Below the pieces are notes generated by a model that was not told the origin of the DNA, did no database searches, and saw only the letters and a program-made list of their open reading frames with translations. 64,000 nucleotides of DNA from Nereocystis luetkeana (lineage: Eukaryota > Sar > Phaeophyceae > Laminariales > Laminariaceae), in assembly GCA_031213475.1 (NCBI GenBank), contig JARUPZ010000007.1, positions 2,315,457-2,379,456 of the forward strand, written 5' to 3'. Shown here one piece after another: positions 1,405-61,821 of the stretch (within the stretch, counting starts at the first letter, position 1; every line of letters starts with the position of its first letter). A program made the translations under genes and the position numbers.

Positions 1405-4400
1405 AACGGGGAAGGGGAGAGGGTGGGGGGGTGGAGGGGGAGGGAGGCGGTGGAGGCGGGGGGGGGGGGTGCACTCATGTCATGCGTTACCGTAGTCGTA
1501 TGACCATAGACCCTCGCATCCCTCCAATGCCGCGATGGAGCACGTCGGGTTTTCACCGACCAGGCAAGACATTGTCTGCACCAAAGGAGGAGAGGGAGGG
1601 GAGGAGGGTGCGGTCGAGTGGGTGGGGGAAGTGCCACTTTCATATGCATATGTCTATATTGTTCGCTTAGGGTCCAAACAGGAGCTGGCTGTGCTTACCT
1701 GTTTCTAGCTTGCCTTCGCTCGCTCGTCAGTATATCTATGTACCATGATGCGCAAGCTGTAAAAAAAAATGTTTTTTTTTTTGCTTTTTTTTTTCTGAAC
1801 GAACGCGAGATACTTGGTTTCAACCAGTTAACCCTTTTAGAACCGCAGTCTCGCTTTGGGGACAAACCACTCAAATTTCAAGTAGTTTGTCCCCAAAACG
1901 GGACTGCGGTTCTAAAGGGGTTACCGTTGCTGCTCCCCAAAAATAACGGCTCGAGCTCGGGTGGGGTCCTTGGGTGAATATGAAGGTGGGGAGACGGGAG
2001 GGGGGAGAACCAGATGGCGAGCGATGTACAGGCTAGTTTTGGATGAGACGACGCTGGGATGTGTTTTTGGGCATCGACGCGTATACATAATAGCGAGAAT
2101 TCCCCAAAGTTTGACATTTTTTGTCTTTTCAAACTATCGATGTATGGTTAGGTGATTCCGCCAGTCGACTACTGTGCGAAGTAGGCTAAAAGTTTTTAGT
2201 AGTACTGCGGGGTTTTTTTAACGCCTAAACGTCTGTCTTTTTTTTTCGTTTTTATATATTTTTTATATTTTTCTCCTTCCCAGCACTTGCTTGCTTTACC
2301 CATGAATTTGCGACTGTTTTTCTTTTCCGTCTTGCCCTGTCTCACAGTCTGTGACCGCTGCATCAGAAGTGTCTCTCTAGGATAAGGAATCGGGACGGAC
2401 GCTGGGTGTACTGATGAATGTGCAGCTGGGTAGAAAGGACGATATAATGAAGACAACACACACACATTTATTGGGTTCGCCCCTCTTTTTCCCTCTGTCT
2501 TATTAATACTACGGGGGACCATAGTTAATAGGACCAAATATTGTTAGTAAAAATGGTTACATGTATAGGATTTTATGTATACCATAGGTCCTATTAACTA
2601 TGGCCCCCCGTAATAGCGGTGACTCAGACCCGGGGTCAAAAAGCAGGTTCTTATCCCCCCTCCCCTCCCCACTACGGCAACAACGAATTAGATGGAGACA
2701 ATTTCGTCAGGCCACTTCCCCCCCCCCCCCCCCCCCCCCCCCGCTCCCCCTTCAACCAATGGCAAAAAAAGAAACCGCAACAACAGCAATAGCAGCAACC
2801 CATAACGACGGCAAATAACAACCGCGTGAAAGCGTAACAATCGTACGAGTGAAACGCGAAACAAAACCGCACGAATCGCGAAAAATACAAAGCGCTCTAT
2901 GCTATGCACCCGCGATAACCGAAACGACCGCAAGGTACAACCCCAAGGGCTGGGTGGGGTACGGGGAGTACCGGCCGGGGCTGTCGGCGTTCTTGTTCAC
3001 CTGGAGAGACGGGGATACCTCCAAGAGAGCGGTCAAGCTCAGGAAGGTGAGTGAGGAATGGGGTGGGTGGGGACGCGGGGGGGGGGGTGGAGGGGGTAGG
3101 GGGGGGAAGGGGGGGGGGGAGGGGGGGGGGAGGGGTAGAGCGTGGTCGGGGGGGAAGAGGGGGGCGTGGGGAGGTCGTGGAAGATTAGGGGGGGGGGGAG
3201 GAGGGGGGGGGGGGGAGGGGGGATGATGCGGTTTGGCATGCATCTCGCGTTGTATGCCACATTATTTTTTACAGTAGTGCATTCCATGCCTGGTAGAAAC
3301 TCCCATATATTGAAGAAAAATCCCATCCTTATACAGTGGTGTAAACTCCCAAACACAGTCGAAGTGATATTGTTTTTTTTTTTTCCAGCATTATCAGGTG
3401 GCGGTTTTAGAGTCGGGACTAGGGGGGGGTGAGTCAAGTCTCCCGCAGCAGGCTGCACCTCACAAGGAGACTGACTGACTCCACGCGCAGGCCAACGCGG
3501 TACGAGGGGCTGACTGCAGTAGTGAGCGCTACAAATGCTGTTGTTGAACTAACGATACTGTTCGTGCTAGAGAACGGTATGGTTGAGTCGATTCTTTGGA
3601 GACTTGCTACAGTAGTATGAAAAGTCGAGTTAATAGGTTAAGTAAGGGCGCATTACTCTGGACGAAAATATAAGGGGCATCTAACCCTTTTAGGACCGCA
3701 GTCCCGTTTTGGGGACAAACTATTGCGGGGGACCATAGTTGACAGGACCTACCTGGTATGGTATACATAAAAACCTACATATTTCACCATGTTTACTATT
3801 AATAACAGTGTTTGGTCCGTTATACTATGGTCCCCCGTATTACTTGGAAATTGAGGGGTTTGTCCCCAAAACGGGACTGCGGTTCTAAAAGGTTCAAATA
3901 CGAATATGTAGTGCAGCTACGCTAGCTAGCGCCTTGTCACTTTAATCTGGCGATCAACGACCCGTCGTGCGAATGCAGAGGAACGTGTATAGAGACAGGC
4001 TATTGCAGTGTAGAAGGAACGAGATATGTATATACGTAGGCGCGGATTGACAGCCAGAAGAGTTTCGCTATTATTGGAGACTCTTCTGTTCAGCGCTTTT
4101 GTTCGTCTAGTTTCACCACGCCGGGATCTGTACGCAACGAACACTCTTCCATCTTCTTGTGTCCTTTTGACCCGGACCGCTGCCTCTTCTCTATCCGAAC
4201 CACCTTGTAAGTTCTGAAGGCCGCCCCTTTCAGTGTCTTAACGGAGAAGACTATTATGTACAGCAACGTTCCTTTCCTTCCACACAATAGAAAAAACTGT
4301 ACCCACAGTTTTTAAGCCTCGACACAATCATTTGGAGTACCTACCCCGAGCCCTGCCGGCTAGAAAAGCAGAAGCAAGTAGCGCCCATACTAGCGGTGGC

Positions 4401-6378
4401 AGCAGCAGCAACACTAGTCGTGGCAGCGGCAAAAACAACAACAAAAACACTTACAGCAGCGCTTGCCCCGCCCGCCTCCATCTCTGCCTTTCCCAAAGCC
4501 AAAACCAAGAGTAAATTTTCCTCCACATCTTACTCTTGCGGTGCCCCACCTCCCCCCCCCCCCCGTCCACCGCCGGCAGATTGGGGGCGCGGGACTAGCG
4601 GTGTGGGACAAGCCCGAGTGTGGCCCGCTGTTCGGCTCTGACGGATTCGGAGTGGGGATGCAGAAGGGATCGGAGCGGCTGGGGAGGAGCAAGCTTGGCA
4701 GGTAACGGCAGCGGTCCCGGTAGCGGTAACGATAGCAGCAACGGTATCGGTGGCGGTAATGGTGGCGGTACCGGTGGCGGTAACGGTGGCGGTAACGGTA
4801 ACAGTGGCGGTAACTGTGGCGGTAACGGTGAAGGTGACTGTGGCGGTAACCGTGGTGGCAACTATGGAGGTGATGGTGGCGGTAACGGTGGTGGTAACGG
4901 TATCGGTGGCGGTAAGGGTGGAGGTATCGGTAGTGGTGACGGTAACGGCGGCGGTAATTTGACGGTAACGGGAATGGCGGTGGTAACGATAGCGGCAACG
5001 GTTACGGTGGCGGTAACGGTAACGGTCCTAGTGGTGGTAACGGTGGCGGTAACGGTGGAGGTATCGGTGGAGGTAACGGTGGCGGTAACGGTGGAGTTAA
5101 CGGTGGAGGTGACGGTAGCGGTAACGATGGTGGAAACGATAACGGTCACGGGAATGACGGCGGTGACGATGGCGGCAAAGGTATCGGTAGCGGTAAACGG
5201 TACGGTGGCGGTAACTGTAACGGTAACGTTCCTAGTGGCAGTAACGGTGGCGATAACGGTGGAGGTATCGGTGGCGGTAACGTTGGCGTCAACGTTGGCG
5301 GTAACGGTGGAGGTGACGGTAGTGGTAACGTTGGCGGTAACGGTGGTGGTAACGGTAACGGTGGGGGTAATTTGACGACAACGGAAATGGTGGCGGTAAC
5401 GATAGCGGCAAAGGTGTCGGTGGCGGTAAACGGTTACGGTGGCGGTACCGGTAACGGTAACGGTAACGGTAACGGTCCGAGTGGTGGCAACGGTGGCGGT
5501 AACGGTGACTGTAACGTTGGCGGTAATGGTGTAGGTAACGGTAAAGGTACCGGTGGCGGTAACGGCGACGGTGGCGGTAACGGTGACGGCAACGGCAACG
5601 AGAGTCACGGCGTAGGGAAAACGGGGTGGGAAAGGACGAACGTGAGGGGATGGAGGCGGGAAAGGAACGAACGACAGCAGGATTGAAGGGAGGCAAGACA
5701 GGCAAGGAAGGCATGGCAAAGCGGGAAAGAAGGAAGGAAAGGAAGCAGGAAGGGGCGAAGGAAAGGAAGGAGGAACTGGGGCAGAGGGGCTGTCGCGAGC
5801 GAGGGATATGATCGGCGGCTGTGGCAGCGTTGGTGGCGGTGGCGGCGACGGCGTGTAGACGCTGGCCTTCTTCGTCCGAACTCTGATAAACGGCGTACCT
5901 GGTATAGAAGTGTACGGACGATGTCCCCTTGAAATCTCCCGATCTCACACCTACAACCGTTTCCCCCATTGCAACCGTTACCCCCAGCTTGGAATCACAG
6001 AGCCGAAATGTTACTTTTGCCGATTTTTTTTTGCAGTGTCAATGGGTAATGTCCGGTTTCGGCATATTTTTTCCGTCACCTCCCCCGCCCCCCCCCCCCT
6101 CCGTCTCGAAAGGGATGTATGGTCAATGTTCAATTGGCTAAGGCAAGCAACTAATGACTACCCCCCCCCCCTCCTCTGCCCCCCCCCCCCCCATCCTGCC
6201 CTTCCTATATCGCAACAAAAGCTATTACGAACGCCTACCTGGAGGGGCCAACAGCATTTTCTCCCCGTACGACGACGGCGGCCTGGCGCAGATTGTGGAG
6301 CTCAAGGCGTACGTAGGCGTTTACGCAAAGGGGGAGATCATTCCCTTTGACGACGCCATCCCTTTCTCCCTCAGCTGA
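1218..6378 (+). CDS. TLDc-domain protein, 3' part of gene (four exons)
   Basis: Exons 1218-1350, 2935-3046, 4580-4701 and 6222-6378 join in phase to give 173 aa ending in TGA. Borders: cag|AA, GG|gtgagc, aag|G, AAG|gtgagt, cag|ATT, AG|gtaacg, aag|C. The whole stretch reads as a TLDc domain: FHKGVDFKGPGIVIAKTKGG, then GGYNPKGW and FLFTWRDGD, then a GAGLAVWD...GPLFGSDGFG segment, then the family-typical end VYVGVYA-like plus IPFDDAIPFSLS. TLDc proteins (TLDC1/OXR1/NCOA7 type) are linked to oxidative-stress protection and V-ATPase binding; that role is family knowledge, not shown here. The first visible exon starts in phase 2, so at least one 5' exon is missing, and I saw none in 1-1217. Introns 2 and 3 carry G-rich sequence after the donor and C runs before the acceptor. 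No other family explains all four exons. Confidence 0.92.
1457..1583 (-). mobile_element. poly-C SINE-like element, family B
   Basis: The minus strand reads GGATGCGAGGGTCTATGGTC, then ATACGACTACGG, ending in a C run. TLDc intron 1. Confidence 0.72.
1828..1923. mobile_element. MITE-2 copy 1
   Basis: About 95-bp near-palindrome TTAACCCTTTTAGAACCGCA ... inverted. The arms share CGGGACTGCGGTTCTAAA. TLDc intron 1. Confidence 0.88.
2509..2613. mobile_element. MITE-1 copy 1
   Basis: About 105-bp hairpin with terminal inverted repeats ACGGGGGACCATAGTTAA-like and GGYCCCCCGTAA, flanked by TA. It is in TLDc intron 1. The core AATATTGTTAGTAAAAATGG is shared by all copies. Confidence 0.9.
3682..3894. 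mobile_element. MITE-2 copy 2, split by a MITE-1
   Basis: Left half 3682-3722, right half 3843-3894, with MITE-1 copy 2 between. Both arms are otherwise well kept. Confidence 0.9.
3723..3840. mobile_element. MITE-1 copy 2, inserted in a MITE-2 copy
   Basis: Flanked by TA (3721-3722 and 3841-3842). It splits a MITE-2 copy whose intact relatives read GACAAACTACTTG at this point, proving the TA duplication. It carries an extra CCTGGTA at 3752-3758. Confidence 0.93.
4702..5605 (+). repeat. GGTAAC minisatellite at the TLDc intron 3 donor
   Basis: About 900 bp of GGTAAC alternating with GGTGGC-like hexamers. It begins at the exon 3 donor (AG|GTAACGG), so every unit resembles the true 5' splice site. 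Purine-rich GGAAAGG sequence follows to about 5790. Confidence 0.92.
6102..6193 (+). mobile_element. poly-C SINE-like element, family A (3' part)
   Basis: CGTCTCGAAAGGGATG...AAGGCAAGCAAC followed by C runs to 6192. It lies 29 bp upstream of the last TLDc exon. Confidence 0.75.
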
Positions 6379-7061
6379 TGGAATGGAATCGCCATAGATT
6401 CTCACCATGTGACTGGAATGGCTGATTGACTTGACTCTACGTATGCATGCAGCTCAACGTATTCTGGAGAAAATAACCCACATATTCGGACTCGACTGGT
6501 TTGGTCGACTGGAACTTTACATGTGTCTTGACGCAGCAGACTGAAGAAGCGAAAGGAACTAATTTCCTCATTCGCAACGGCTTGGTTGGTTGATCGGTTG
6601 TTTTTGATTGGTGGACCGGTTAGTGGGTTGGTTCGTTGGGGTTTCCCATATTTTCGCGTGCTCACTTTTTCTTCGTTAACTTGCCTTTACGTTATAGGGG
6701 TAGGAGGGGATGGCAAGAACCCGAAAGCGAAACGCGGGCGTATCGCGGCAGAAACGGGCGGACGGATTTATTTAAAAAAATTACAACTTTTGCTGAAGAA
6801 CTACCTACTGTAAACGAACAAAACTAAAAATCGAGAGATCGAAAAGAAAGCAAAAGTGGAATGTTCTTCCGCGCCTCCATTGACCATTGGAGGTAAAAGG
6901 AATTGATTTGCCTTAGACCTCCTGGCCCGAAGCAGCCGGGGGGCTCGCCCTGGGCACGACACCCCCACGCTGGAGTGTCTACTTAGCGCGGCAGAGATCC
7001 CGGCCGTAAAGGCTACAAACGCCGAAATTACAGTAGAGCGGTTGACCTTCTTGTGTATGTG

Positions 7062-7164
7062 TTGACCCTCTTCGGAGGCTGAAAGTCCCGTTTGGGGAAA
7101 AATTGCATATAATTTGACTGGTTTGTCCCCCGAAACGGGACTGCGACTGGCCTTAAAAGGGTGA
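7062..7164. mobile_element. MITE-2 copy 3 (degraded)
   Basis: The right arm is clear (GTTTGTCCCCCGAAACGGGA) and the left arm is eroded. Confidence 0.75.
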
Positions 7165-7698: not shown

Positions 7699-7803
7699 TT
7701 ACGGGGGACCATAGTTAACAGGGCCTATGGTACACATAAAAACCAATATGTTTAACCATTTTTACCAACAATGTTTGGTCCTGTTAACTATGGCCCCCCG
7801 TAA
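7699..7803. mobile_element. MITE-1 copy 3
   Basis: Intact inverted repeats, preceded by TA. Intergenic, between TLDc and POR. Confidence 0.9.

Positions 7804-8235: not shown

Positions 8236-8270
<35 letters not shown>
8236..8270. repeat. (TA)n microsatellite
   Basis: About 17 TA units, intergenic. Confidence 0.95.
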
Positions 8271-8274
<4 letters not shown>

Positions 8275-8496: not shown

Positions 8497-8538
<42 letters not shown>

Positions 8539-10800: not shown

Positions 10801-13800
10801 CTAGATTCCCACGAGGTCGGAGCTAATTTGCCACAGCTTCTCGCACCGTGCCTCGTCCATCGCCTCGTCCGACACAACGTTCTCTCTCGCGGTGGCTTCC
10901 GCCGTCTGCCCGTTCCATCGCCAGTAGGCTCCCGAGGTAGTGTACTTGTCGGAAGCCACAACGTCAGCTACACGCCTGCCAGCCTCCTGGGAGACCCAAA
11001 CAAAAGCCAGGGCGATCAAAGGGGACGGGACGGGACGGGACGGGGGGGGTAGGTAGGTCCACGATTAGTATATGAGAGATCCGAAAAACGAAAAAAAAAA
11101 AAAAGAGTCAACTACTGTAGGACAGAAGGAAGGGGGTCCGAGACGTGTTATCTGGGAGGACCCCAACCTGCAAAAATACCTGGTATGCTAAGAAGAACAG
11201 TAATCGGGGATCGGGGGGGGGGGGGTCCACGATTACTTTCCTTCCTCCCTTAGTCTCTTGTGTTTTACTCCTTGTGGCCTTTTAGTCACCGCTTTCTCTG
11301 ATGGCTCTGTACCCCCCGCCTACCTTTCTTTCTGTCTCTTTATTTTCTCTCTGGCTCTAACCCCCTCCCCTCCCCTCCCCTCCCCTCCCCTCCCCTCCCC
11401 ATCTCTATGGTCATACGACTACGGCCATGCACGAGATCGAGTACATCTCTGCTATCGAGTACACCCCCCCCCCTCCCTCTCCCCCCTGACTCCATGGTCA
11501 TACGACTACGGCCATGCATGAGATCGAGTACGTCTCTCCTATCGAGTACCCCCCCCCCCCCCGTCACTGACACCCTCCGGTCTATCGTCATCCCCCAAGC
11601 AGCATCTCGGGTAGGCCGTCCGTTTCTCACAACGGCATGCTTAGCACGAATACCCTCCCGCCCGCTACCGCATATAATAGAGACTACATAGTAGGAGAAT
11701 GTGACATATACAAGGAGGAAAGGGGCGCGTCAGAAGAGGAGATGAGGGAAATAGACGAACGTGATGGCATGGAGGAGTTTTGACACACTAGATAACAGCG
11801 ATAAAACGATCGCTATCCTAGGAGATAGATGGTGGCCACAGGCGGCCAAACAGGGAGGGGATAAGACTAGCAAAAAAAAATATCTATGTAGTACATGGAA
11901 ACAACGTAATGAGCGCCCGATTGTTGGAGGTGTCTCTATTAGGAGGAGTAGGAACGGTGCTCCCTCCGTCTCGAAAGGGATGCGTGGTCAATGGTCAAAT
12001 GACCAAGGCAAGCAACAAATGAGTACGCCCCGCCCCCCCCCCCCCCCTCGCCCCCCGCTTACCTCGGTCGAGACGAACTGCTTGGTGACGTACTTCTGGA
12101 ACAGGGGGAACAGGGTCCGGAACCATCCGCGCTTTTCCCTGAACAGCGGTGACTCCGCGATACAGCCGGGGAAGAGCGCACTCACGATCATCCCGTTGGG
12201 CGTGAAACGCTTGTCCATCTCCCTCATCATCAGTACGTTGCACACCTTAGAGTCCTTGTACGCCTAAGGGGTTTCGATGGTCCGTTGGAGTTGCAATGAT
12301 CACGAGGCGTGGCAGGCAATGGGGGGGGGGGGGGGGTCGTTATGAGTTATGAGCACGTTGCACACCTTGAAGTCCTTTAACTGTAGGTCCGTTCATGGTT
12401 TGTTGGATGGGAGTTGTAGTGGCCAACAGGCATGGCAGGCAGCGGGAGGGGGGGGGGGGGGGGGGGGGGGGGTCATTGTGAGCACACTGTACACCTTGAA
12501 GTCATTGTAGGTTCGGGGGTTAACGGCACATTGAAGTTGTCATGTTAAAGAATATATAGCAGGTAGGAGAGGGAGGGGGGGGGGGGGGGGGGCGAGCTGC
12601 GTGCACCCTACATGAGCCTCGATAATACGATAAAACAAAACGAAATCGCGTGAGCACCCAACAAAAACAGCGAGAAAGCATCCAGACAAACAAAACTAAA
12701 GCAACGGCGATACAAACATCCACAACAGCAACCAACAATACCGCTGTTGTGTACCCTCGTGGGATGTGGTACCGCTGTTGTGTACCCTCGTGGGATGTGG
12801 TGGCATCATCATCGCGAAAAACATGAAGTTCTTTGCGCTCCGCCCACGTCGCGAGAGGCCACGGCTGTAAATACCTCGCCAGCTAAGCTTTACAGCAGCT
12901 CTACTGATGTCACATTTACGGTTGCATACTTTGGAACTTGCGCATCCCCTCCCTCCCTCCCTCCCTCCCCCTATCATCCTTTCAACCTGTGATATCGCAA
13001 CTCGTGCGCCCCCCCCCCCCCCCCCCCCCTCCCTCCCTCCCTCCCTTCCCCCCCCCCTCCGTCCCCCCTCCCCCCCACCCTCCCGCCCTCCCTCCCTTCC
13101 TTCCTCCCTCCCTCCCTTCCCCCTCCTTCCGCCCCTCCCTCCCTCCCTCCCTCCCTCCCCACCCCCTCCCTCCCTCCCCACCCCCTCCCTCCCCACCCCC
13201 TCCCTCCCTCCCTCCCTCCCTCCCACACCTTGGTGGGCTCGTACTTGATGCCGTCAATCATGGGTTCGTTCTTGGCAAGCCCCTCCAAGTCGCCGAGGTG
13301 CGCCTTTCATACATTCACCATTTCAAAACGTGGCCGCCAGTCGGGTGGGGCGGGGTGGAACACACAAAAACGGAAGTGAGGGAATATTAGATTGCATAGC
13401 GGAACGGGGCAGCGGGTGGGGGGGGGGGGGGGGGGGTCCCGCTCAGCTCGGAGGGGGGGGGCGGGGGTCCCGCTCAGCCCGATGGGGGAGGGGGGGTCCC
13501 GCTCAGGGTGGTGGCTATGGATACACTCTCCATATTGTCCGCCTCGGACAAGTGGACAGTTATTTGGGGTTTCCATTGAAGGACACAGTTGGCATGTCTC
13601 CGAAACGACAACCACTCGGGGCGTAACCTCGGGGCGTAAATTGCTTGGCATTTACACTAATGGCCAAACGTTCCCTCGTCTTTCTGCCCGTAGTATCACG
13701 TACCAGGTACGTCGTTACAACTAGCTAGAAAAAAAAAAAAAAAAAAAGAAACACGAAGACAAAAACAAGATAGCTGGCGATGGACGAGAGCTGAACATAA

Positions 13801-16800: not shown

Positions 16801-19800
16801 CAGGCGCCTGGCACTTCTTAAAACCCTGAAAATACTACAGTGAACACGACTGTAGTGTTTTTTTTCCCTTCACACCTTGGGATACCACACGGCCGCGTTG
16901 CAGACGAGCGCGTCGGCCTTAACCTTGGCCGCCTTGAGCGTCTTCACGAACTGTCGCACGCTGTTTAGCGAGGCGAGGTCGAGGTCCATCACCGTGTACG
17001 CCGAGGAGTCCATCCCGCTTTCTCTCGCCGCCGCCTCGGCCTTCGCGAACGACCGGACGGCCATGATCACGTGCCAGTCTCCGGAGGCGGCCAGGCTCTT
17101 GGCGGCTTCCAGCCCGATGCCTGTTCATAGTTTTTGTTCGTTTGCGCCGCGTTTCCGCGTGTCACCGCGCGATAATTGTTATCTCAAGCGAGTATTCTCG
17201 CTCGCGCTCGGGTTTCGCAAGGACTCGTTCTCTTTGCGATGAAATACCTGGTACCTGGTATCAATAGTGTTCATTTGCCGCCACCCTAACAACGCTATAT
17301 ACCCGACCCGACTGCCCGGGTATGGCATCTCGACCTCGGGGCATGTTTTGGGTAGAGTACAGGCAGTGCGAACCGCTGGAAGATACCAATACGTGCGTAC
17401 CGACGTATACAGGGGATGACAGGCTAATGATCCTCTAGAGCCCCTATCGACGGGTTCGTTTGGCACCTCGATGTCGACTCATCACATCCTGGAGCTGGAA
17501 AAGGTTCCAAGGGTTCGGCTGTTCGCCGACGAAAGTGGTACGTGAGTTGGGTTTAGAACGTCCTGAGACAGTTTGGTCCCTATCTTCTGTGGGTGTTTGA
17601 AAATTCCGAGGACTAGACCTTAGTACGAGAGGACCGGGAAAACTCGATCCCTGGTGTTCCGGTTGTTCCCGAAGGGGCATCGCCGGGTACTTTTGGTCTG
17701 ATGCGCCTTTCGATACCCGGGTAAGAGAGTCGGGGTACCCAAGACATGTAAAGTATCGGACCCTTCTGTGAGCACACCTTGGAAACTGCTCACTGGTGAT
17801 TACAGAATAAAGCTGGGTATGTATGTCGCTCTTCGGTTCTGCTTCCCAATTCACACAACAGCCTCCATGCTTTCGCTTCCAACACTTACGTATTTCCCTT
17901 TTGTCGAGGCGTGCTACGTATTAATGCATAAACTTTGTATTTTACGCATGGTGCATGGTTTCGCTTCAAAACGCATTTTCCCTTTTCGTCGCGTAATTTC
18001 ATGTATAACCTGGTAAGACTACTTACTAGACGTAGGGTGCTCGTTCATGTGGTGTGCCTCACGCATGAAAGCGTGTCACGTTCAGAGGTCTACTGTAGCA
18101 CCAGTTGCGAGCGGTGACTCACGTAACCGTACGTGAGGCCTTTGGTCTTTGGACAACCGATTCTTATGCTGTCGCCGCAACGGTTCCAAAGGAAAAACGC
18201 CTCGGTTGGAAACTACGAAATTACGGTACACATATTGATAGCAACCGCATTCTCTTCCTAGAACTACAAGTACAAATCTGAGCCTAAAACCCCGGCTTGT
18301 TTACGTCGTCTAGCCAGGGAGTCATCGTCGGGCGGATGCGAAAACCTCCGCATTCGACATATTTCGTGCAATATGCGTACGTCCCTGGTACTACAGCTAC
18401 GACGACCTCCTGCACTGGTTCCCGTATATACGAGTAGACTACTCGAACATCTTTTTGGCACCTGAGTACCGCCAGTGATTTCTGGTCGGGTGCTGCTTGC
18501 CGTCTGTCCTACCTGCTGGTGTTCTCGTTGATTTGGCCCCCCACGACACCGCGCGACACGCGTCACCGGCTGTCGTTTAGTCTTGTTTGTGCACAAAAAA
18601 AATACACAGCATCTCTCTGTTATTTACGGTCCCCTCTTGTGTACACACGTACGAGCGAACACTGAGACCCGAAAATATATGTATGATGCATGATGCATGA
18701 TGCATGATACGTGGTACATGATACCTGGTAGCGTTGTAGCAATCATATCATAGCGACCGAAACAAAAAAGGCGGGGTATTATTTCAACCATTTCAGAATG
18801 AACGCGCAGCGGTAGTACCAGTATGGTACAAAATGCAACTCTACACTGGTTAATACCAGCATTACGTAGCTTCTCAGCATACTGCCTGCACCCGTGTACA
18901 TTTTTTTTATATGCCGAACTTCGGATTTTGGGCACCTCTTGTACTGCAAACGGCGGTGTCTATATACCACACCCCCGTTGATAACGCGTGGGGTTCTAAA
19001 AAAGCTATCACCCGGTGTGCTATATATACACTCCCGGGGGTGTGATACACAGCATAGTGCGATGATACAGCAGTGGGTGATTCTGTTGATTTGATAAGGC
19101 GAATCACCGGGGTGGTTTACTCTACCGTAGGGGGTGTGATATCAGGCACTGGAATCTGCCCCTCCCGGGGGTCAGGTCGGGCCAGCATACCCAAGCGCCA
19201 GCGGCAACAGCAGCCTGCTCTGCTGGTGCAACGGGAGCTATGGGTTAAATTGACACGACACGAATTCTGAATGTGGTAGTGTATTGAGCTCAAGCTTTAT
19301 TTTTACCAATCCGCCGAAGGGTGACACAAAAAAACACAAAAAAACAAAAAAAAACGTCGCAACAAAGGTGTTTGGCTGCCACGCTTCAAGCAGGAGCCGA
19401 TGCCTTCTCCTACTCCAGCAGACCGGGTTGATTCGCATGGCGAATGGTGCATATCTACTGCTGTAGGACATAAGATCGGTTTCTATTAATACCTCATGAT
19501 CGAGGTATTTAGGGGCAGGTAGGTTCCTGATATGTATGATCTACAGCAGTAGTATCATAGCTCATGTCCTTGAGTGGGACCTGCAAAATCTGCATTCGAG
19601 GGAACATAGTTAATAGGACCAAATATTGTTAGTAGAAAAGGATAAATATATAGGTTTTTATGTACCTGGTATACCACAGGTGCTATTAACTATGGTCCCC
19701 CGCAATAGGCAGATGCACAACCTCTCACAACCAGCAAGTGAGGAATTGCTGCTGAAGATGACCTACAGTACTTTACACCACTGTCCGGAAATACAGAGAC

Positions 19801-21475: not shown

Positions 21476-24400
21476 ATGGAATTCCTGTCGGCAAGAGGGG
21501 TGGATCAGGATATCTCCTTCAAGGGTGACACTCTTGTTGTAAGTACTGCTGGGGGGGGGAAAAATGCATTGTGTACGCATATAGTTCCCACTCGATTCAG
21601 CAACGATGTAAGCTACTGCCCACATGCCCATATTCAGCAGCACAAGCGAACAAGCAGAGGATCCATTCTCTGTGAGTAGTCTGCACTGAAAGTCGACTGT
21701 CTCAATTAGGCGCCACCTGGTATGTATTTCGTTACGTTTGCTTCCGCGCGAGCAGCCTCTCTCGCCCTACGTATGGCATATCAAAACCTAACAGGTACCG
21801 GCATCTGGTACCGGTATGACCGTAAATATAATAACTGTATAGTCTTTGATAGTAATATTAAACGCTGATTATAATATCGTCCATATTAGTCTCTTCTACG
21901 AGTACAGAGCCCCACCTATTTATTACCAGGTATATCGGAGGTACTCGTACCACGGACCTGTTTTGAGACTTGACAACAGAAGCAAACACAGAAGCAGAGT
22001 TTGGGTCATCGCTGGCGCAGGTGAGGCAGCGACGCCCTACGCGGCGGTGGGCCTATTTCGTTTTGCCAGAGGTGAAGTCGTGCTTAACAACTTCAGCAGT
22101 TTCGGCAGCGACGATCCTTGCCCCGAGTGAATAAACTTGAGGTGAACTCCACTCTAGGCTGTTTGTTTCCTACGACGCTGTTCGATTTCGAGCTCCAGAT
22201 TTTTTTTTGTCGTAGTCCCAAAAATGAAAGCATCTGCCTACCGGTATCCAGTCCGAATGTGCAAAATCGGACCATAATTTTTTCGATTTGAGAAACCGAT
22301 GGCCCAAGTCGTCGGATTTTGGCCCAACTGAAATCCGACGAATTGGGCCATCATATTTTCTATTTTCGAATTGAAAAATGGCATGGTCTCTCAATTCAAG
22401 ATGTTATCCAAGCAAGCAAGCAGCAGCAGAATGATCGACGAGTTGGATGGTGACAGCGACGTTGCTTTGCGCCTGACGCGCAGTCGGCGATCGGCGCGTC
22501 ACTCCGCTTTGGCTTTCTACGATAGAGGTAGCACATTTCCGCTAAAAGTTTCTGGATGACGGGTCTCCTTAACCCGAACTCGTCGGAATGCCATTCTTGT
22601 TTCGAAAATTGACGATTTTGTATACTTGGGACATGGGATTATTTATCGGGACATGAAATTTAATTTTTGCTGAAGTCAGTTTTCCGGTGAGGTATGGAGC
22701 TCCTCAAGTGAGGAGCCTCAGAAAACTCGCCTCCGAAAACTCAGGGTGAACCTCTATCGTAGAACACCATGCCAGACAACAGTCGGCTAGCGCAGGCTCG
22801 GGCCTAGAGACCATGAGAAGCGCGCTCGGCGCGCACCTCTCCCTGCTGGATACGTACTCGTAGACTACAGCAGCATCAGCATGCAGTCATTCAGCGATGC
22901 TGGGCTCAAATGTTTCATTGTGTCAAAATACAAAATACCAAGACAGGTTGATTCGAGCGCAGTCGGCATGTCTCTTCGCCTCTAGACCAGAGGCAGTCGG
23001 CAGAGATTCGGACTATTGGGTTCTAGGCCCAGTGCAGCGCACTCGGCGCGCCTCTTCGCGGCGCCAGACCGCAACAACAGCAGTTGGTCTCGGGGTCTGC
23101 TCGAATATCTGCACGTACAACAAAATCCGTTTTTTTTTTCGCGTACTATCTCGATTCGCGGACTTCACAGAAGAACAAGCGATTAGGGGCATCACCTGAA
23201 GCTCAAAAATCTGAGCCGCGCTAAAAAAAACAGCCTCAAAAAATCTACTTCGAGGGCGTTGCCCACTGCGAACACCTGGTACGTCTTGGTACGTCGTAAA
23301 AAAAAAGTTGTCGGCGACCGTCATGACACGCGGCTTGCAGGTTGGCATGGCTGGAATGGTGGGTTCAGACGCGAAGCCGAGAGGTGAAGGAGCGGGGGAA
23401 GATGGAGTAATGTTTTCTTTGGCACCCCTCGCAAGACATACCCCACTTGTCCAATGACTTCACACACTCGCGGTTTTAACTTAAGCGCCGCCCCCAAAAA
23501 ACAGCACGACCGAGGGGAAACTGGGTCGCCAGACAGGCCATAATGTTTCCCAACTTGTGGTGGCCAAACCCGGAGCTACGACTGCCCCCATGTTTATAAT
23601 GACGCCGACGACTACCGCGTTGAATCCAGTGAAACAATCTTTTCGCGGGGGTGAAGGGTCGCCACGTGGAACGGGGCCAGCGTGATCGGGACTTGCGCGC
23701 TGAATTGGAAAGCTCTGTGCTAGTTTCCTTCGGCAGAAAATTCCACGACGGCCGGTCCAGACAGCTGACCTTAATTGTACATGCCGTGCATACGATCGCC
23801 GCAAACGCGCTCAATACAGCTGACGATCCGAACATCGCTCGGCACGCTCCGGACGTACTGTTTCACGTGTCGTCCAAACGGGGCAATCCAATCGCGATGC
23901 CGGTGAACGGGATCCGTGCCGCCCACTATCGCGCCCGCAACGACCGAAGCGAACCACGGAGACCGTCGCTGATCTGAACAAACCCGAACACGTTCGACGG
24001 GTTGTGCATTTTGGGCACCGGCGAAAGCTGCGAGAGAAGCTCGAAACTCGTGTTCAGAAGGGGCGACCGAACCCGTGCCTGAACCGCGCTCTCCGCGACC
24101 GGAGGCGACGACGGAAATTGGGACCCCGCATTGAACGCCGCGGCAAAGCACTTTGTTGAGCGGCTCTGGGGTATGTGTTCGGCGGCGGCGGCGGCGGTGG
24201 TTCTCCAGGTGGCCCGTAGTGCGTAGGCGTCGGATGTGGTGTGTCTCTCCCGTGCATCGTCGGGGGCGGTGGCGGCGTTGCGTTATCGTACGTAGGCGGT
24301 GGTGGTGGTGGTGGTGGTGGTGGGGATGAGGGTAGTGGTGCGTAGCCGTACGTAGGTGTTGATGGCGCCGTGTTCTGAGCGATACGCTGGTGGTGCGCAA

Positions 24401-26598: not shown

Positions 26599-26639
<41 letters not shown>

Positions 26640-38272: not shown

Positions 38273-38369
38273 TTAACCCCTTTAGAACCGCAGTCCCGTT
38301 TTGGGGATAAACTACTTGAAATTTGAGTGGTTTGTCCCCAAAACGGAATTGCGGTTCTAAAAGGGTTAA
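38273..38369. mobile_element. MITE-2 copy 11 (cleanest copy)
   Basis: Bounded by TTAA at 38273-38276 and 38366-38369, with almost perfect arms. Intergenic. Confidence 0.92.
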
Positions 38370-38383
38370 ACATAACGTGGAGG

Positions 38384-39150: not shown

Positions 39151-39688
39151 CCTTGTACCTCACTCCCTGGTGCCTCGTGCCTGTGGTACTCACGCTGACC
39201 TAAAATGATAGTTCGGTCCCAGAGAGGTAAACTAAAAAATTTTCACCTTCGATAGTTTTGTCGTTCTTGTTTGTCAGCTCTTTTTTCAAGTGTGTGTGTG
39301 TTGTTCACAATAAACCGTTCTTTCTACCCGTCGACACCCAGCACAACCAGTGTCCGTGCCGATTCTTCAATCCTACAGAGATACAAGCTCTGTTGTCACA
39401 AGACTACGTCACAGATCTACTGCATTTCAAAAGATGTGCGGTGTTCCAACTCCTCATGCAAACCCGACCAATACAACAAATAAATGGTTACGAGTACACG
39501 CACTTGTAGAATAAGCACGCCAACCCCGGTCCTTGGCCGTGCAACATGTATCTACAGCATGGAGAACTCTATCATCTGTATATATATACCTGGTATATAT
39601 ACCTGGTGATGTGTCTGTAGATGATCTATCTGTAGATGTATCTGTAGATGATCTATCTGTAAATGGTCATCTGCGGATTGTTCATCGG

Positions 39689-45400: not shown

Positions 45401-48400
45401 GAGCCGTCGGTAGCAGACGGAGCCGGGGTCTCGGATTCCATCGACGTGTCGTCCGTTTCGACACCAGTCGCCATTCCCTCGGTCGGCGACGATGTCTCCA
45501 TGCCTCTCGAGCCGTCGGTAGTGGACGGAGCCGGGGTCTCGGACTTCATCGACGTGTCGTCCGTTTTGACACCAGTCGCCATTCCCTCAGTCGGCGACGA
45601 CGTCTCCATGCCTCTCGAGCCGTCGATAGCGGACGGAGCCGGGGTTTCGGACTTCATCGACGAGTCGTCCGTTTCGACACCAGTCGTCATTCCCTCGGTC
45701 GGCGACGACGTCTCCATGCCTCTCGAGCCGTCGGTAGCAGACGGAGCCGGGGTTTTGAATTCCGTCGGGGAGTCTGTTTCGGTGCTAGTCACCGTTCCGT
45801 CGGTAACGAGGGGCGAGGCAGTCCCGGTAACGGAAGTGGGCGACATCGTCCCGCCGAAGCCTCTCGTCGTGGCGTCTGTCGGTGCGGCGGACTCGAAGCT
45901 AGCAGAGGTAGGCGCCGACGTTTCGAAGCCCCTCGCCGTGCTTTCCGCGGGCGAGTTGGTCCCGAGGTGCTTGCCCGAGAACGCGGTCGGTGACGGGGTC
46001 GCGGATCCGCTGGATTTTTTCCTGCCCTCGGGGCAAGTGACGCACGAGCTGCAGCTTTCCGTTCCGCCGCACAGCTTGGAGCAGTCCATGGCGCACATGC
46101 GGCATCTACGCGGGGGCGGAGGCAGAGGTGGGGGGGGGGGCAGGGGGGGCGGGGGCCCGCGCGGGAGATGCAAAAATCAATAAAACTATTTGCTTTCCGA
46201 CAAATGTCCGGCTAAAACAATCGATCCCCCACGCAGCCGGTGGGAGGGAGCTATCCCAAAGATAATCAAACAAAAGGAGGAGCTGCGAGTACGTGTGCAC
46301 CAGGTATATTTTTATTTTGCAGTGCTGTCGCGAATATTTCGCTACCTCTTTATGGAGAAAGAAGAACGAAGATCGAACGCGGAAGCTATCTTCGAATTGC
46401 GTGGTGTTGTCGCGATTTATTAAATAGCCGCGTTCGGCAGAGAGCCAACGAGCGGGAGAAACTTTTACCTGGTAGGTGAGTAAGAGGCAGGTACCATTTA
46501 CTAGCTGTGTCCTGGAAATTCGAAATCGAGTCTGCGTTTCCGCTCTAAGCAAAATGACGCTTGTCCTGTCGCAACTTTACAACTCCTCAGGGACTGAGGA
46601 GGGGACATATGTCTCACGTGCCAAAAAACAAAAGGATGAGTTTCAGAGTTGGACATACGAAGCATGGCTAGATTTAGGCGTGATTAGATGTTTTTGTGGC
46701 CGAAATACAGCAAGGAGCTGCACGACCAAGATGCTGTACTCGTACCGCCGCGCGCTCGTGCCATTAATAAGCGGTTACTTTCACAAGAAAATGATTTCTG
46801 TTTTTTTTCGTGACCGCAATACCTGGGCTCCAAAATGATTACTACCGAGCTGTTACTGGAGGCGTTCCGGCAGCTTTGCGTACTTACCCATCGAGGCCGA
46901 AGATGTCGCACCATAGTCCCCCGGCTTGGCCGCTCAGGCATTCTTCCGCGCAGTACATGCCCATGTCCTGCGTGTTCCGTCAAGATGGGGTCGGGAAAGT
47001 CGCGCCAGGTGACGTCATCTCCTCGTTTAATAGCAATACACCAACCCGTACGCCACACCAATTATGATACTCTTCTTATGGGCCGACAATAATATAGCCG
47101 AAGCATTATTAATAATAGAAGTGCAAGTGGGGGCATGCAGATACCATCAGTCCCGTTGGTAGGTTCTCACGTGAAGCAGGGTCTGCCTTTTACTAATTTC
47201 AGTATACAAAACTCGGTTTTATGACGAGTACCAGTGTACGCAAACTAGGCCAACCCATCTCTCTCGTCCTCACGTTATTGTCCAAATGCTTTGTCATACA
47301 CAGGTTCTCACACCACGCGTGAGGACGGTGCACACGAGAACTACTGCAGGCCGACCCATGTCACGCTAATGTCGGGCCGCTACATCGTTCCTCACTGTAC
47401 ACCAAAGCTGCTACACAGTAAGCCAACCCATCTCTCTCGTCCTCACGGTAATGCCGAGACGCTTCATCAACATTGACCGGTTATCACGGCGAGCGAAAGC
47501 AGTGCACACACATATCTGCCCTCACGTTAATGCTGAGGGCGTCGACGTTAAGACGGCCGGCCTCTTTGTAGCACTGGCCGTTGCCCTTCGTGTCGGGGTC
47601 GCAGTAGAAGCGGATCTCGGCGAGGTTGTTGTCCTCGTCGGTACACACGTAAATCTGCCAAGACGGTACGCACGCACGGGGACGAGGGCAAGAGGTGGGG
47701 TCGAAGACCACCGTCGAAAGTAAATTAATCATATGACGCGAGACCGTTGCGCTAACTCCCTCACAGATACACCAACGTTTTAGGAACTAGTGTGAGGCAT
47801 TTTTTGTTTAGTTCATGTCGGGCGACGGGACGAACCGACAGTCTACCAGGAAATTTGAAGATTATCCGTATGGCCCAACGCGAGGATGACGCTCAGTCAA
47901 GGGCTCCCCGACCGAGTACCTTGGAAACCCGGGGAGGCACCACGGATGCCCCCTGACCGCCACAAAAACGTCATCGATCTGAGGGTTTCGGTCCGTTGTC
48001 TCTCCATGAGCGAAATGCTTCTGTTCTCGGCGCTGGATGCACATGACTCAGGCGTCGGCGAGTGCAGCCTAAAGGGGGCAATGTGTTTTATAGGACATAT
48101 TTTTATTTCTTTCATTACCCTGGTCGAGCGCGCTGCCCAACGACTTACGAATGGTAAGTCGGGAGCGTGTCCTCGGACTGGTACTGCTGTGCATCTACTT
48201 CTCTATTGTACCCGGTAATTTCCCCCCAATGCCCCCCCAGGCTTGCTACGTACACAAAAACGCTTTTTGACATGAATTCCAAAGCGCGGTTTATCTTACG
48301 ATGACAGCAACTCCGCAGCAGTAACGGACAAGCCAGCGGGTTCTGAGAAAACGCCCTAACAACACCCACGTCTATCGGGAGCGCAGTATCGAGCAAGGTC

Positions 48401-52220: not shown

Positions 52221-55200
52221 ATGGTGCGCCCTTCGGCTCTTTCCGCGACCTTTGTGGCGCTTGCTTCGACCTCATGCTCGGCCTTTGTGGCACCCCGTGT
52301 GCTTCCTCGCGTGGCGCATTCTTCGACTAGCATGTCGATGAAGGCAGGAGGGAACTCGTCGCCCATCAGCAAGGCCGCCGGGATCGTGGGCAAGGTGAGC
52401 CACATGCGTGTCGTGCTGTGCCTGGTGCTGTCTTCCCTCGTGATACGCGACTTACACCCCCTCATAAGTGTGGGGCAGTCATTGGTCGTTTTCTCCATGA
52501 GTGATCAATATCCCCCGCTCGTGTCCACTTTTGAGTAGCTCCTGTAGTTGCAGTCTATGTACGTATCCTTGTTGGTGCAATGAGTGCTCCAAATAAGGGC
52601 CTTGTGCCATACTCGTCACACACGACTACTGCTGTAGTACGAGTAGCTGACACCAACTCATCAAAACCTCACGTACGATTAAATACTCGTAGTCCTTTTG
52701 CCCAGAGGCCCTTCGCCACTCGCCACTCTATCGCTGTCTGGCCCCGCTCTCGCCGCCGCTCCCGCCCTCCCGCCCTCACTTTCCCTCTTTCCACCCGATG
52801 CACGTACGGATATCGCACGTAATTCTTTCAAAGCGTCCAACTCGCATCTCGCAACATGAGACACGCGCCAAATCCCGGCCGTCTACGTACAGTACCTGGT
52901 ATTTAATAGTAACATGCAAGATAACACGCCCCCTATTAATAGCAAGAACTGCTTTTCTTTGCGAGGGGGAGGGCGTACAGGAAACGCCGAGCGATGTATG
53001 CGTCTAGGATGGAAACATCTCGTCGAGATAGATGTTTATGTTTCCGAATCCCATCGTCTTCGTTCGTTATAATGCCTCCCTCTTGTTCTGCGGAAACCCT
53101 TTTGTCTGAAATTCGTCACAGCAGCGATGTGGCTATCTTGCATGTACAGCGGCAGTACTTCGATGAGTGATGATTCCAGCCGGTATTATACATGTGTCAC
53201 CAGTACATACCAGTACCCAACACCGAGCCATGCTACACACTATTAATACTAATGATTATTAATAGTACCTGGTATTATTTACGGGGGGCGGTAGTTAACA
53301 GGACCAAATATTGTTAGTAAAAATGGTCAAACATATAGGTTTTTATGTGTACCACAGGTCCTGTTAACTATGGTCCCCCGTAACAATAGTACTGCTTGAA
53401 TGTATCCAGTTTTGAATACGATCCCTCCTTGCCTTGAACTGAAACTTCGCGTCTGAAACTTCAAATGGAAGCACTCCTTCGGTTCACCCTCCCCCCCCTC
53501 CGAATATAGGTTGGGCTGGCGTCGGTTGGCAGCGACACTATAACGGGGGACCGTATACCCTGGTAGTTAATAGGACCTATGGTGCACATAAAAACCTACA
53601 TATTCAACCATTTTTTACTAACAATATTTGGTTCTATTTACTATGGTCCCCCGTAATACTGTGTAAATCATGCCGCTCACTATTTGAGCTACGAGTAGAC
53701 AACCAGGGTATCGTTTTTTTTTTTTTTCGGGGCGGTCGGTCACAGGTGGTGGTCTATTAATAGTTGAACCGTTTGTGCGAGGTGAAGAGCCTTTACTCCG
53801 CACAAGGGGAATGCTCGTATCACGTACCAGGTACTGGTACCTGGTAGTGTCTCCATGGCGCTTCGCTCCGCGGGCGGCCTACGCCGCCCGCTACGCTCGC
53901 TCAGGAAGGAAAAGTACATCAAATTACTATGCGAAGCAGACAGAGGTCCATGATTGAATACAGTTTTTTTAATTATGATCGTAGTTGCAAACTGGCGACT
54001 TGATAATGCCAAGAGTCCCGCCGCCATGCTTCAGGAGAAAACAGCTCGGACGCCACATACGCTTCGCATCGCGGGCGGTTGCCGCACGTACGTAGATCCC
54101 CGAGGTAGGGTACTTAATTTGTTCTTTTGATATGCTATCTGTACGAAAAAAGAGAAAACACAGCACGGCACAGCAGCACCGCAAAAACAATGTAAAATGT
54201 AAACGAAAATTTAGGGGAGAAAAAAAAATCCCCGTGCCTCTCCTGCAATAATGTTTCTGCCTGATTGGAACACCTTGCACCGGCCAGGAAAGAAAAAAAA
54301 CGAACAGCAGAGCTTCTCTCTCAGCCTCGTACGCCGCCCGCCCCTCTCGGGACCACCTCGCCACCGATTCGGTCCGGGTAAATCTTTCCTCCCTCTCTGC
54401 CACAGTGAGCCCCGTCGCCCGCCTCGCGTTAAGCCCGGTGCTCCCCGTGGCCGTCGTTCGCCAGCTCGACAGTATTGGTACTCAGACTGGGAGCCCCCTC
54501 TTTCAACGTCAGCGTGGTTGCAAAAATAAGCACCGCTTGAACATCATCTTGCAAATTCGAACAACCCTTGTATCTCGTACATACTCTATCCAAAATCACA
54601 AATGGAGGCCAGACAGGGCCCGTTCATGCACCCCTCGTGTCTCGAGGCAGACGCGACGCCTAGGCACGAAAGCGGCGAGCACGCTCAGAGAGTGAGATCT
54701 ATGTAAGTGGTTCTATGGTAAGGCACCTTAGTGGCAGTTACATAGTACTCCCATTGCTGTCTCTGGAAGTGGCTTCACCGGAATTGAAATAAACTCATTG
54801 AAGCTGACATCAATTCGGTAAGGCGCCCTAGAGGCAGTTACATTGTACTCCCATTGCTGTATCTGGAAGCGACTACACCGGAATTTAATGAAACTCATTG
54901 AAGCAGTCATCAATATGCATGTCCGCCTCTCAATCGGTTCTTGGTAGGATGCAGCTCGCCGTTCATGCGACTCGCCGGACACCTCACGGCGCTCCGCGCT
55001 TGGTGCAAGCAATGTCTGCCTGCCTGGTCGGCGAAAAGGTCTGCGTATGGACGACTAAGGCCACGCATGAGATCGACTACATCTCTCCTATCGAGTACCC
55101 CCTACCCCCCCCCCCCCCCCCCCCCTCTACCTGTGTTGCTCTATCCCCAACAACGTTAATTCACTTTCTCTACAAAGATGAGTTTCGCCCCCCCCTGTGT

Positions 55201-58200: not shown

Positions 58201-59387
58201 GTGTATTCATACGCAAGACTTGTCTTTGCTCTGCATCGTGTTCTGTTTGTACAGTGATCATTCATATGGATACTGCAGCTCTATGCAGCATGATACTATT
58301 ACGGGGGACCATAGTTGATAGGACCAAATATTGTTGGCAAAAATGGTTAAATATATAGGTTTTTATGTATACCATAGGTCCCTCTAACTATGGTCCCCCG
58401 TAATATGAATATTAAAGCCTTAAAACGATGCATAAAAATCTCTGCCGCCCTCGTAGTTTTTTTGTTGTTTTGAGCGAGAACGAATACTGATTGTTCTCCC
58501 CCCCTTTTACCCCCCCTATCCTGGGAGATAGATGGTGGCCACAGGCGGCCAAACAGGAAGGGGATAAGATTAGCAAAAACGTCTTTTATGTACCTGGTAA
58601 TATATGGAAACAGCGTAATATGAGCGCCCAATTGTTGGAGGTGTCTCTATTAGGAGTAGGAACGGTGCTCCGTCTCGAAAGGGATGCGTGGTCAATGGTA
58701 AAATGACTAAGGCAAGCTACAAATGAGTACGCCCCCCCCCCCCCCCCCCCCCTCCCCTGTCCTCGCAGGTGTCAAACCCGTTCAGTTACCTACGTGTTTG
58801 TTGTTTTTGTTTATTCGGTTTGTTGCGATCGGACAATGTGTCGCGAATGTTCCGGTCCGACTTGAGCCCTTTTAGGATCGCAGTTCCGTTTTGGGGACAA
58901 GCTACTTGAAATTTGTGTAGTTTGTCCCCCTAACGGGGCTGCCGTTCTAAAGGGATCGTAGCCGGATGTCCTCTTAATACAGCAGTACTCACAGTGAGTT
59001 GTCTCTCTTCCATCCCTCTGACCCAACTGATATCTCACTTTCCTTTTTTGACAGGCTCGTACTCACGCCTCCCTCTCTTGGAAAACCCTTGTTTGCCCTA
59101 TCTATATGTGTGTGTGTTTGCAGGTGGTGATTGACCAGGTTTTCTGGGCTCCCATCTTCACTCTGATCTTCTTCACGTGGATTGGGATCACCTCGGGGGC
59201 CTCCCCCAGCGAGATCGCCACGAAGATCAAGAGCGACCTCATCCAGGGGGTGGTGGGCTCGTGGACGGTGTGGCCCCTGGCCCACACGATCAACTTCAAG
59301 TACGTGCCGACGGAGCAACGCCTTCTGTACATCAACTCCATCCAGATCTTCTACAACGTGTTCCTGTCTATCATCGGGTCTAAGTAA
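52221..59387 (+). CDS. MPV17/PMP22-family membrane protein with plastid-type presequence
   Basis: Exons 52221-52394, 56532-56750, 57725-57922 and 59124-59387 join in phase 0 to 284 aa ending TAA. Exon 1 is a signal peptide with CSAFVAPR followed by a Ser-rich transit region, pointing to the plastid. Exon 2 opens with an Asn/Gly-rich stretch (MGNSNNNNGNGG), then LWDSYNGCLAEKPILVK. Exons 3-4 give the family core: GFSIGDFLAQKG, FGFLFHGTISHFFYNAL, VVIDQVFWAPIF, and the signature WTVWPLAHTINFKYVPTEQR. Four hydrophobic segments are visible. The family includes mitochondrial MPV17/Sym1 channels and peroxisomal PMP22; substrates are poorly known. Exon 3 appears to end at a GC donor (AAG|GCGCGT); any nearby GT would break the frame. 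Attachment of exon 1 across a 4.1-kb intron rests on phase and order only, so the core gene is more certain than its targeting. Confidence 0.9.
52905..53110. mobile_element. MITE-3 copy 3
   Basis: GATAACACGCCCCCT left end and a shared interior (GGAGGGCGTAC, CGAGCGATGTATGCGTC). The right end is eroded. MPV17 intron 1. Confidence 0.55.
53279..53383. mobile_element. MITE-1 copy 9
   Basis: Same hairpin, in MPV17 intron 1. The left flank is altered, and a TACCTGGTA lies just outside it at 53266. Confidence 0.88.
53541..53656. mobile_element. MITE-1 copy 10
   Basis: TA on both sides. The left arm is interrupted by about 10 bp (TACCCTGGTA-like), a variant of the short insertion seen in other copies. 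Confidence 0.88.
54995..55127 (+). mobile_element. poly-C SINE-like element, family B
   Basis: GCAAGCAATGTCTGCCTGCC ... GAGATCGACTACATCTCTCC then about 20 C. MPV17 intron 1. Confidence 0.72.
55521..55688. mobile_element. MITE-1 copy 11, with internal duplication
   Basis: About 60 bp longer than the family: the arm from GTTAATAGGACCAAATA to the AGGTTTTTATG block occurs twice in a row. MPV17 intron 1. Confidence 0.88.
58299..58403. mobile_element. MITE-1 copy 12
   Basis: Intact, with TA on both sides, in MPV17 intron 3. Confidence 0.9.
58515..58752 (+). mobile_element. poly-C SINE-like element, family A (full length)
   Basis: Sister of the copy at 11813, with an extra CCTGGTA at 58593-58599. 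Ends in about 20 C. MPV17 intron 3. Confidence 0.85.
58863..58962. mobile_element. MITE-2 copy 13
   Basis: Both arms are present; the TTAA ends are lost. MPV17 intron 3, 160 bp before the last exon. Confidence 0.83.
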
Positions 59388-61249: not shown

Positions 61250-61570
61250 TTTAGCAGAAAACGGTATACCGGTACACAGAAAACCGTATTTGTCTGTTCA
61301 GTTTGGTGTGACTCTTGAAGAGCTGATTTCATTTTCTGTACCGTCAACTGGCAGAAAATCCACCGGTGTACTGTTTTTTTTAATTTTTTTCGCGAGATAT
61401 TGCGGACGGTCCTTCGACAGAAAACGGTAGACTGGGACAGAGAACGGTATTGCCCCGAGGTTTGGTGTTGTGATTTTGAAGAGCCGATTCCATTTCCTAT
61501 ACACCGTCAACTGGCGTAAAATACGCACGTGTACCGTTTTTTGCCTTTCCGCGAGGTATTGCGGGCACTT
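61250..61570. repeat. ~165-bp tandem duplication
   Basis: CAGAAAACGGTA...GGTTTGGTGT...CCGTCAACTGGC...CGCGAG.TATTGCGG occurs twice. Confidence 0.85.
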
Positions 61571-61821
61571 TTGGACTTTCCTTTTTATTATACGAAAACC
61601 TAATTCCTGAAGTGTAGGTATAAGCTATTTAATACCTGGTAGGAAGCTTTCGGGGTTCGATAGATCTCAGCATGCTGTATTTGATCTCCGGGGCTCTTCC
61701 TTCTTGCCCTCGCCACGTACTCGTATCTAGGAGCACACTATAATGACCATTCTCAACGCCTCCAGCGCGCACGCTGGAAAAATCTAAATCCCGTTGGTTT
61801 AGTGTTTCGTTTTCTGTGTCA

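Follow-up and report, generated by a model that had tools for sequence, protein, structure and literature searches.

Probable excision scars of a TA-targeting DNA transposon in the genome of the bull kelp Nereocystis luetkeana

Introduction

When Sleeping Beauty, a transposon of the Tc1 group, is excised, pairing of its CAG overhangs around a mismatched central base yields TAC(A/T)GTA. The footprint C(A/T)GTA is listed for Sleeping Beauty in a table of PMC3878927, which gives overhangs of 2 or 3 bp for Tc1/mariner elements, and a Tc1/mariner stagger of two to three nucleotides is described in PMC2170065 (papers cited here by PMC number are drawn on in excerpt). Footprints of 2–4 bp in general and of 0–3 bp for ZB are given in PMC7913693, and footprints of 0–4 bp for Passer in PMC9976928. 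Here we describe a nine-base word, TACC(A/T)GGTA (hereafter TACCWGGTA, W being A or T), in a stretch of 64,000 nucleotides of the brown alga Nereocystis luetkeana (GCA_031213475.1, contig JARUPZ010000007.1, positions 2,315,457 to 2,379,456; hereafter the window), and propose that it is probably the heritable excision scar of a TA-targeting cut-and-paste DNA transposon, with a putative five-nucleotide stagger that is read from the scars themselves.

The likeness to Sleeping Beauty and Frog Prince, both of the Tc1 group and both leaving TAC(A/T)GTA, lies in the TA target and its duplication, in the odd palindrome and in the A/T centre; however, the core of those elements is three bases long and 5 bp are added, whereas here the core has five bases and 7 bp are added. 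A TA target and a cut inside the 5' ends, as proposed here, also characterise other Tc1/mariner and pogo elements, such as ZB and Passer. For these groups the excerpted sources describe 0–4 bases and report none of five, in contrast to the five deduced here, and relative to the range in those excerpts a five-base stagger would be new. Another brown alga, Ectocarpus, is comparable in having a genome rich in Tc1/mariner copies, with 17 families and 11,912 copies, mostly miniature inverted-repeat transposable elements (MITEs), in the part of PMC12477816 used here; the word "footprint" is absent from the main text of that paper. PiggyBac and the internal eliminated sequences (IESs) of ciliates are alike in their short AT-rich target and in being excised. 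Excision of a ciliate IES leaves a bare TA. That of piggyBac leaves no scar (PMC7351741). Literature searches with the letters of the nine-base word and on genome-wide transposon footprints returned, among the matches listed, no title about footprints in the former case and nothing of the kind in the latter.

Results

Abundance of TACCWGGTA

The first-pass annotation of the window reported 21 exact copies of TACCWGGTA against about 0.5 expected, and suggested that the word looks like the excision footprint of a transposon. All 21 start positions proved correct, and the expectation agrees with 200 dinucleotide shuffles (mean 0.42, sd 0.58, maximum 2). The one-base variants that it mentioned are also present: a count over both strands gives four copies of CACCTGGTA, three each of CACCAGGTA and TACCAGGCA, and others, bringing the one-mismatch words to 25. 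For eleven other permutations of the half-word, such words number 0–11 in ten cases and 25 in one, CTAC; the mean of the ten, with CTAC left out, is 6.7. Of the nine-base odd palindromes with a W centre, TACCWGGTA is the most frequent in the window, followed by CTACWGTAG with 8.

A genome-wide count, as the annotation had suggested, gave 182,395 copies of TACCWGGTA against 1,744 of the reversed word in the assembly (465,085,209 bases, 1,987 contigs, the window lying on contig C7), or about one per 2.5 kb; an excess restricted to the window, which would have spoken against the footprint, is therefore not what the genome holds. In 25 ten-kb stretches picked by position on contigs C1–C6 and C8 (250 kb, hereafter the sample), there are 72 sites; single stretches have up to 9, and 5 of the 25 lack the word altogether. 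Within the window, no site falls in the repeat-bearing reading frame at 43789–46176 or between 46466 and 52893, the region to which, judged by eye, the exon-like frames of a minus-strand gene belong. Overall, chance or base composition is disfavoured as the source of the excess.

Dependence on flanking TA

The core CCWGG by itself is slightly below expectation in the window (134 vs. 160 in shuffles, sd 12). With TA on both sides, by contrast, it occurs 21 times in the window against 8 for the 15 other palindromic dinucleotide flanks pooled, and 72 against 29 times in the sample, where the S-centred core CCSGG (S being C or G) occurs 4 times between TAs against 23 with other flanks. The excess is thus confined to TA-flanked copies, and is not the enrichment of a core whatever its flank that would mark a transcription-factor site or a restriction or methylation site; the idea of a CCWGG methylation site is disfavoured. 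The core TTAA behaves like CCWGG between TAs (17 vs. 7 in the window, 43 vs. 22 in the sample), and no TA-flank excess is seen for AATT (0 vs. 8 and 2 vs. 36) or GC (3 vs. 212 and 16 vs. 1,062).

Filled and empty sites in repeated sequences

Of the dispersed family MITE1 (about 105 bp, ends TATTACGGGGGACC), 18 copies, some partial, were aligned: 13 come from the window, one from contig L001 and four from contig L002, both contigs belonging to metagenome-assembled genome (MAG) records that are described below. Intact CCWGGTA units are present in 5 of the 18 copies, each at a different one of five TAs (window 3750, 19663 and, as a double unit, 29193; L002 2762 and 2824). One more copy carries TACCGGTA at the TA of 29193, another carries TACCCTGGTA at a sixth place, and in a single case, the copy starting at 3721, a 6-bp TATTAA insertion (at 3797) occupies the TA that holds the L002 2824 unit. 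No insertion is present in any other copy that spans those places. A second repeat family provides an independent case: the site at 58591 can be compared with 11828–11948, to which it is 88% identical over 123 bp once its flanks are joined through a single TA.

A broader paralogue screen, which left out loci L007, L008, L010 and L001 and took the first 3,640 bases of L002, covered 101 sites with enough flank. For 25 of them a paralogue spanning the junction was available, and in 20 of these cases one or more relatives were empty. A single tandem array in locus L017 accounts for nine of the 25; among the 16 others, 11 have an empty relative. The 58591 case was not recovered by this screen and was found under other settings. 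The array itself (L017:3373-8353) consists of units of about 528 bp that contain TACCWGGTA sites and TACCAGGGTA neighbours.

Based on the flank counts and the aligned filled and empty copies, insertion is restricted to TA and the TA is duplicated: TACCWGGTA sites are 7-bp insertions at TA. The word is palindromic, genome-wide and unevenly spread (as the five stretches lacking it illustrate), as might be expected of a conserved protein-binding or replication site dispersed by selection or gene conversion. Nevertheless, such a site would leave the need for TA flanks unexplained, and the insertion of the unit at differing positions in MITE copies, together with the empty sites, makes this explanation highly improbable. 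Spread by hitchhiking within dispersed or tandem repeats, or by 7-bp slippage, finds an example in the nine copies of the L017 array and some support in the equal centres of double units (below). As the sole cause it is refuted by the presence of the unit at different places in different MITE1 copies, and 76 of the 101 screened sites lack a paralogue spanning the junction in the DNA compared, a small fraction of the genome; we consider it very unlikely.

Other TA-linked words

Other words between TAs are also enriched in the window, including TACGTA (36 vs. 11 in shuffles), TACCGGTA (7 vs. 0.9) and the Sleeping-Beauty-like TACWGTA (24 vs. 4.8). Another strong word is TATTAATA, with 17 copies in the window against 0.56 in shuffles and 93,112 genome-wide against 10,689 of the reversed word, which suggests that at least one other family left scars likewise. 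This TA-flanked word recurs throughout the window, for example at 20313, 26652 and 53241. It adjoins MITE1 ends at 2501 and 29265, which fits, without proving, the idea that TATTAATA may be the scar that MITE1 itself (ends TATT...AATA) leaves after filling in. In addition, clusters of TACCCGGGTA units, a TA-linked palindrome in tandem, were observed at L038:5525-5959.

Double units and the age of the scars

Every scar provides two TAs, and two units often have a TA in common. Genome-wide there are 15,917 such double units against 2 for the control, while independent placement would give about 1,400 (by arithmetic from the 3,173 TAs in the 64-kb window). Among 59 listed on the plus strand, the centre letters, compared by eye, are equal in 40 and different in 19, and two pairs overlap as triple units; the loci examined contain six double units with equal centres and one with different centres. 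The 19 that differ in their centre letters are not simple duplications.

The excess of one-mismatch words implies roughly 9% change per site (by arithmetic, CTAC left out), which points to scars that have been inherited and are not of very recent origin. This bears on programmed or near-complete removal in each generation or lineage, comparable to that of ciliate IESs but with a footprint. Such removal would account for scars that far outnumber any source seen, yet a one-mismatch excess of 25 against a mean of 6.7 fits old inherited scars and not scars remade each generation, and we regard it as having hardly any likelihood.

Proposed excision mechanism

In the mechanism that we favor, a DNA transposon would insert at TA and duplicate it, and its transposase would cut exactly at the 3' ends of the element and, judging from the scar, five bases inside its 5' ends. 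Excision would leave CCAGG (or CCTGG) 3' overhangs on both flanks, and the two overhangs could pair at four of five bases with a central A:A or T:T mismatch, the repair of which to A or T would yield TA-CCWGG-TA. The logic known from Sleeping Beauty, applied to CCAGG or CCTGG overhangs, thus predicts exactly TACC(A/T)GGTA. We infer accordingly from the scars a transposon origin, a five-nucleotide stagger, the CCWGG end sequence and a source family that by now has become rare, highly diverged or extinct. In the dominant core there are five bases around a W centre, and cores of the series that are shorter occur less often; as five bases, the stagger deduced from the scar, lie outside the 2–4 nucleotides of Tc1/mariner-type footprints, membership in that type is not claimed.

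Regarding the first-pass annotation, its footprint reading is upheld by the genome-wide excess, the need for TA flanks and the empty sites in paralogous repeats, but not as to a transposon with CCAGG/CCTGG ends, its transposase or the five-nucleotide cut. A search for TA-flanked elements that begin with CCAGG or CCTGG and encode a DDE transposase, which it had recommended, found none in the window or in about 332 kb of the genome.

Search for a source element

Several results weigh against an excision scar. In the window, inverted TACCWGG pairs separated by over 40 bp match at best in 16 of 20 bases, in an AT-rich run between two scars, and about 332 kb of genome (some loci overlapping) yielded one strong pair only, in locus L016, which was later rejected. 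The DDE_3 profile (PF13358) had no matches in the genome at E ≤ 0.001, and two of the loci matched by DDE_1 (L037 and L038) lack CCWGG ends on inspection. Scars that far outnumber elements are, in our judgement, unusual for a cut-and-paste transposon. Furthermore, 5 of the 16 screened sites outside the L017 array are without an empty relative (one with filled relatives only, four with other states), and equal centres (40 of 59 listed double units, 6 of 7 in the loci) exceed the half expected of independent repair, so that some double units may have arisen by slippage or duplication. The parallel with Sleeping Beauty is weakened because TACWGTA is outdone by other flanks of CWG, both in the window (AC, 34) and in the sample (AC 117 and TG 93 vs. 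TA 72). Moreover, TACCGGTA in the sample is only about twofold above the mean of other flanks (9 vs. 60 over 15 flanks), and the control core GGWCC is itself somewhat high between TAs (3 vs. 2 in the window, 12 vs. 24 in the sample).

The pair in L016 consists of TA-flanked, 59-bp perfect inverted repeats that start with TACCAGG-AAAAAACAAACTATGACTG, and the end sequence has 524 exact matches genome-wide (255 + 269). It was rejected as the source transposon because the copies also agree in sequence beyond TACCAGG: TACCAGG is internal to a longer repeat with the conserved outside sequence TTCTGCCTCGTGAAA..., nearly the same sequence being found at both outer flanks in locus L036 and at the right flank in L016 (at the left, the sequence available spans six bases). 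Its 524 matches therefore count a repeat and not the source. Reading frames in L036 resemble, by eye, a LINE reverse transcriptase. Repeated TACCTGGGGTATGTA words (L011, L013 and L029) were likewise dismissed as element ends, their outer flanks being conserved too, and the window pairs, two matching at 13–14 of 20 bases and others at up to 16 of 20, were taken as chance and join known scars.

The pogo-like DDE_1 profile (PF03184) has 28 matches in the genome, several of them without internal stops (e.g., C1:8320630-8321181); no TA-flanked inverted repeats were found in L037 or L038 at the thresholds used. Pfam searches of 28 reading frames from the window and eight from L016 gave nothing at or above the curated cut-off, a protein search with one window frame matched solely the window's own protein (P0001, 100% identity over 58% of the query), and pattern scans of viral contigs gave 0 matches. 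The source family may be rare, much diverged or extinct, or may depend on a transposase that lies outside the reach of these profiles.

Alternatively, the 7-bp unit might be inserted directly, with no transposon ever at the site, by a TA-cutting enzyme (perhaps a domesticated transposase) followed by CCWGG repair, or by abortive integration. The lack of a source element in the 332 kb, where scars are frequent, would agree with this, as would the many units with common TAs. However, an odd palindrome with W at its centre is what two identical overhangs from transposon ends are expected to produce on annealing, in the manner of the C(A/T)GTA of Sleeping Beauty (PMC3878927), and TACWGTA also stands above shuffles, though below some other CWG flanks. 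We therefore regard direct insertion as unlikely and retain the excision scar as the better explanation. It is possible, and we offer this tentatively, that the scars come from a TA-specific, "hit-and-run" or near-obligately removed transposon with a five-nucleotide stagger, which left about 180,000 readable scars, whose parent element goes unrecognised and which is known only from those scars.

A scar in every 2.5 kb amounts to a dense record of transposon excision, a process usually studied in assays. If the interpretation is true, it widens the known geometry of TA transposases from 0–4 to five bases, and raises the question of how a transposon leaves far more scars than copies. The scars may also serve as markers in kelp genomes, each being a datable, probably near-neutral indel.

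Scar sites in the window

The sites in the window, together with degenerate units in MITE1 copies, are listed in Table 1.

Table 1. TACCWGGTA sites and related units in the window (window coordinates)
Position	Feature	Remark
3750..3758	TACCTGGTA scar in MITE1 copy (3721-3842)	7 bp absent at the same TA in other MITE1 copies covering it
5896..5904	TACCTGGTA scar	exact match
11177..11185	TACCTGGTA scar	exact match
13701..13709	TACCAGGTA scar	exact match
17245..17260	two units with common TA, TACCTGGTACCTGGTA	
18722..18730	TACCTGGTA scar	exact match
19663..19671	TACCTGGTA scar in minus-strand MITE1 copy (19597-19707)	other copies empty
21924..21932	TACCAGGTA scar	exact match
27755..27762	TACCGGTA, centre base missing, in MITE1 copy	same TA as the 29193 units
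28137..28145	TACCAGGTA scar	exact match
28154..28162	TACCTGGTA scar	exact match
29193..29208	two units with common TA, TACCAGGTACCAGGTA, in MITE1 copy (29145-29266)	14-bp insertion relative to other copies
39587..39595	TACCTGGTA scar	exact match
46466..46474	TACCTGGTA scar	exact match
52884..52908	four TA-linked palindromes, TACGTA-TACAGTA-TACCTGGTA-TATTTAATA	intact scar at 52893-52901; looks as if several elements used one spot
53266..53274	TACCTGGTA scar adjoining the end of a MITE1 copy (53279-53383)	
53556..53565	degenerate unit TACCCTGGTA in MITE1 copy	
53825..53846	two intact units linked via a shortened unit, TACCAGGTACTGGTACCTGGTA	
58591..58599	TACCTGGTA scar in second dispersed repeat	paralogue 11828-11948 has TA only
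61633..61641	TACCTGGTA scar with TA common to TATTTAATA (61626)	

Other observations

The MITE1 word matches two contigs with the titles g3_MAG_00014 and g3_MAG_00016, namely L001 (JALZWC010000131.1) and L002 (JALZWD010000061.1), which carry four more TACCWGGTA sites, two of them within MITE1-like copies. In L002 the match to window repeats extends to base 3,053, and sites lie at 2762, 2824 and 3589; in L001 the match is limited to the first 98 bases, and the site lies at 663. Bacterial genes fill the rest of both contigs, so the end of the alga-like part is a guess; both are deposited bacterial MAG contigs that start with alga-like DNA, and the records are probably chimeric or contaminated. 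The excerpt of PMC9238374, a study of bacteria on blades of the bull kelp Nereocystis luetkeana and the one paper found for this title prefix, names g3_MAG_00002, from which we infer an origin of the two contigs in that study. The window is eukaryotic in appearance, and these matches point to a kelp or a closely related brown alga as its origin.

A second palindromic repeat family (AACCCTTTTAGAACCGCAGTCCCGTTTTGGGGACAAAC...) is present at 1829–1923, 3683–3892 and 38274–38368, the copy at 3683–3892 surrounding a MITE1 copy. At 44505–45753 there is a 108-bp tandem repeat (11.6 copies, 93% matches) that is open in three long frames, and the minus-strand frame at 43789–46176 reads as a Ser/Pro/Thr-rich repeat protein. 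Finally, a bacterial-type large-subunit rRNA fragment (Rfam RF02541, 197 bits) at 17353–17800 spans model positions 2045–2912 in fewer than 450 bases, and has the appearance of organellar DNA that entered the nuclear genome.
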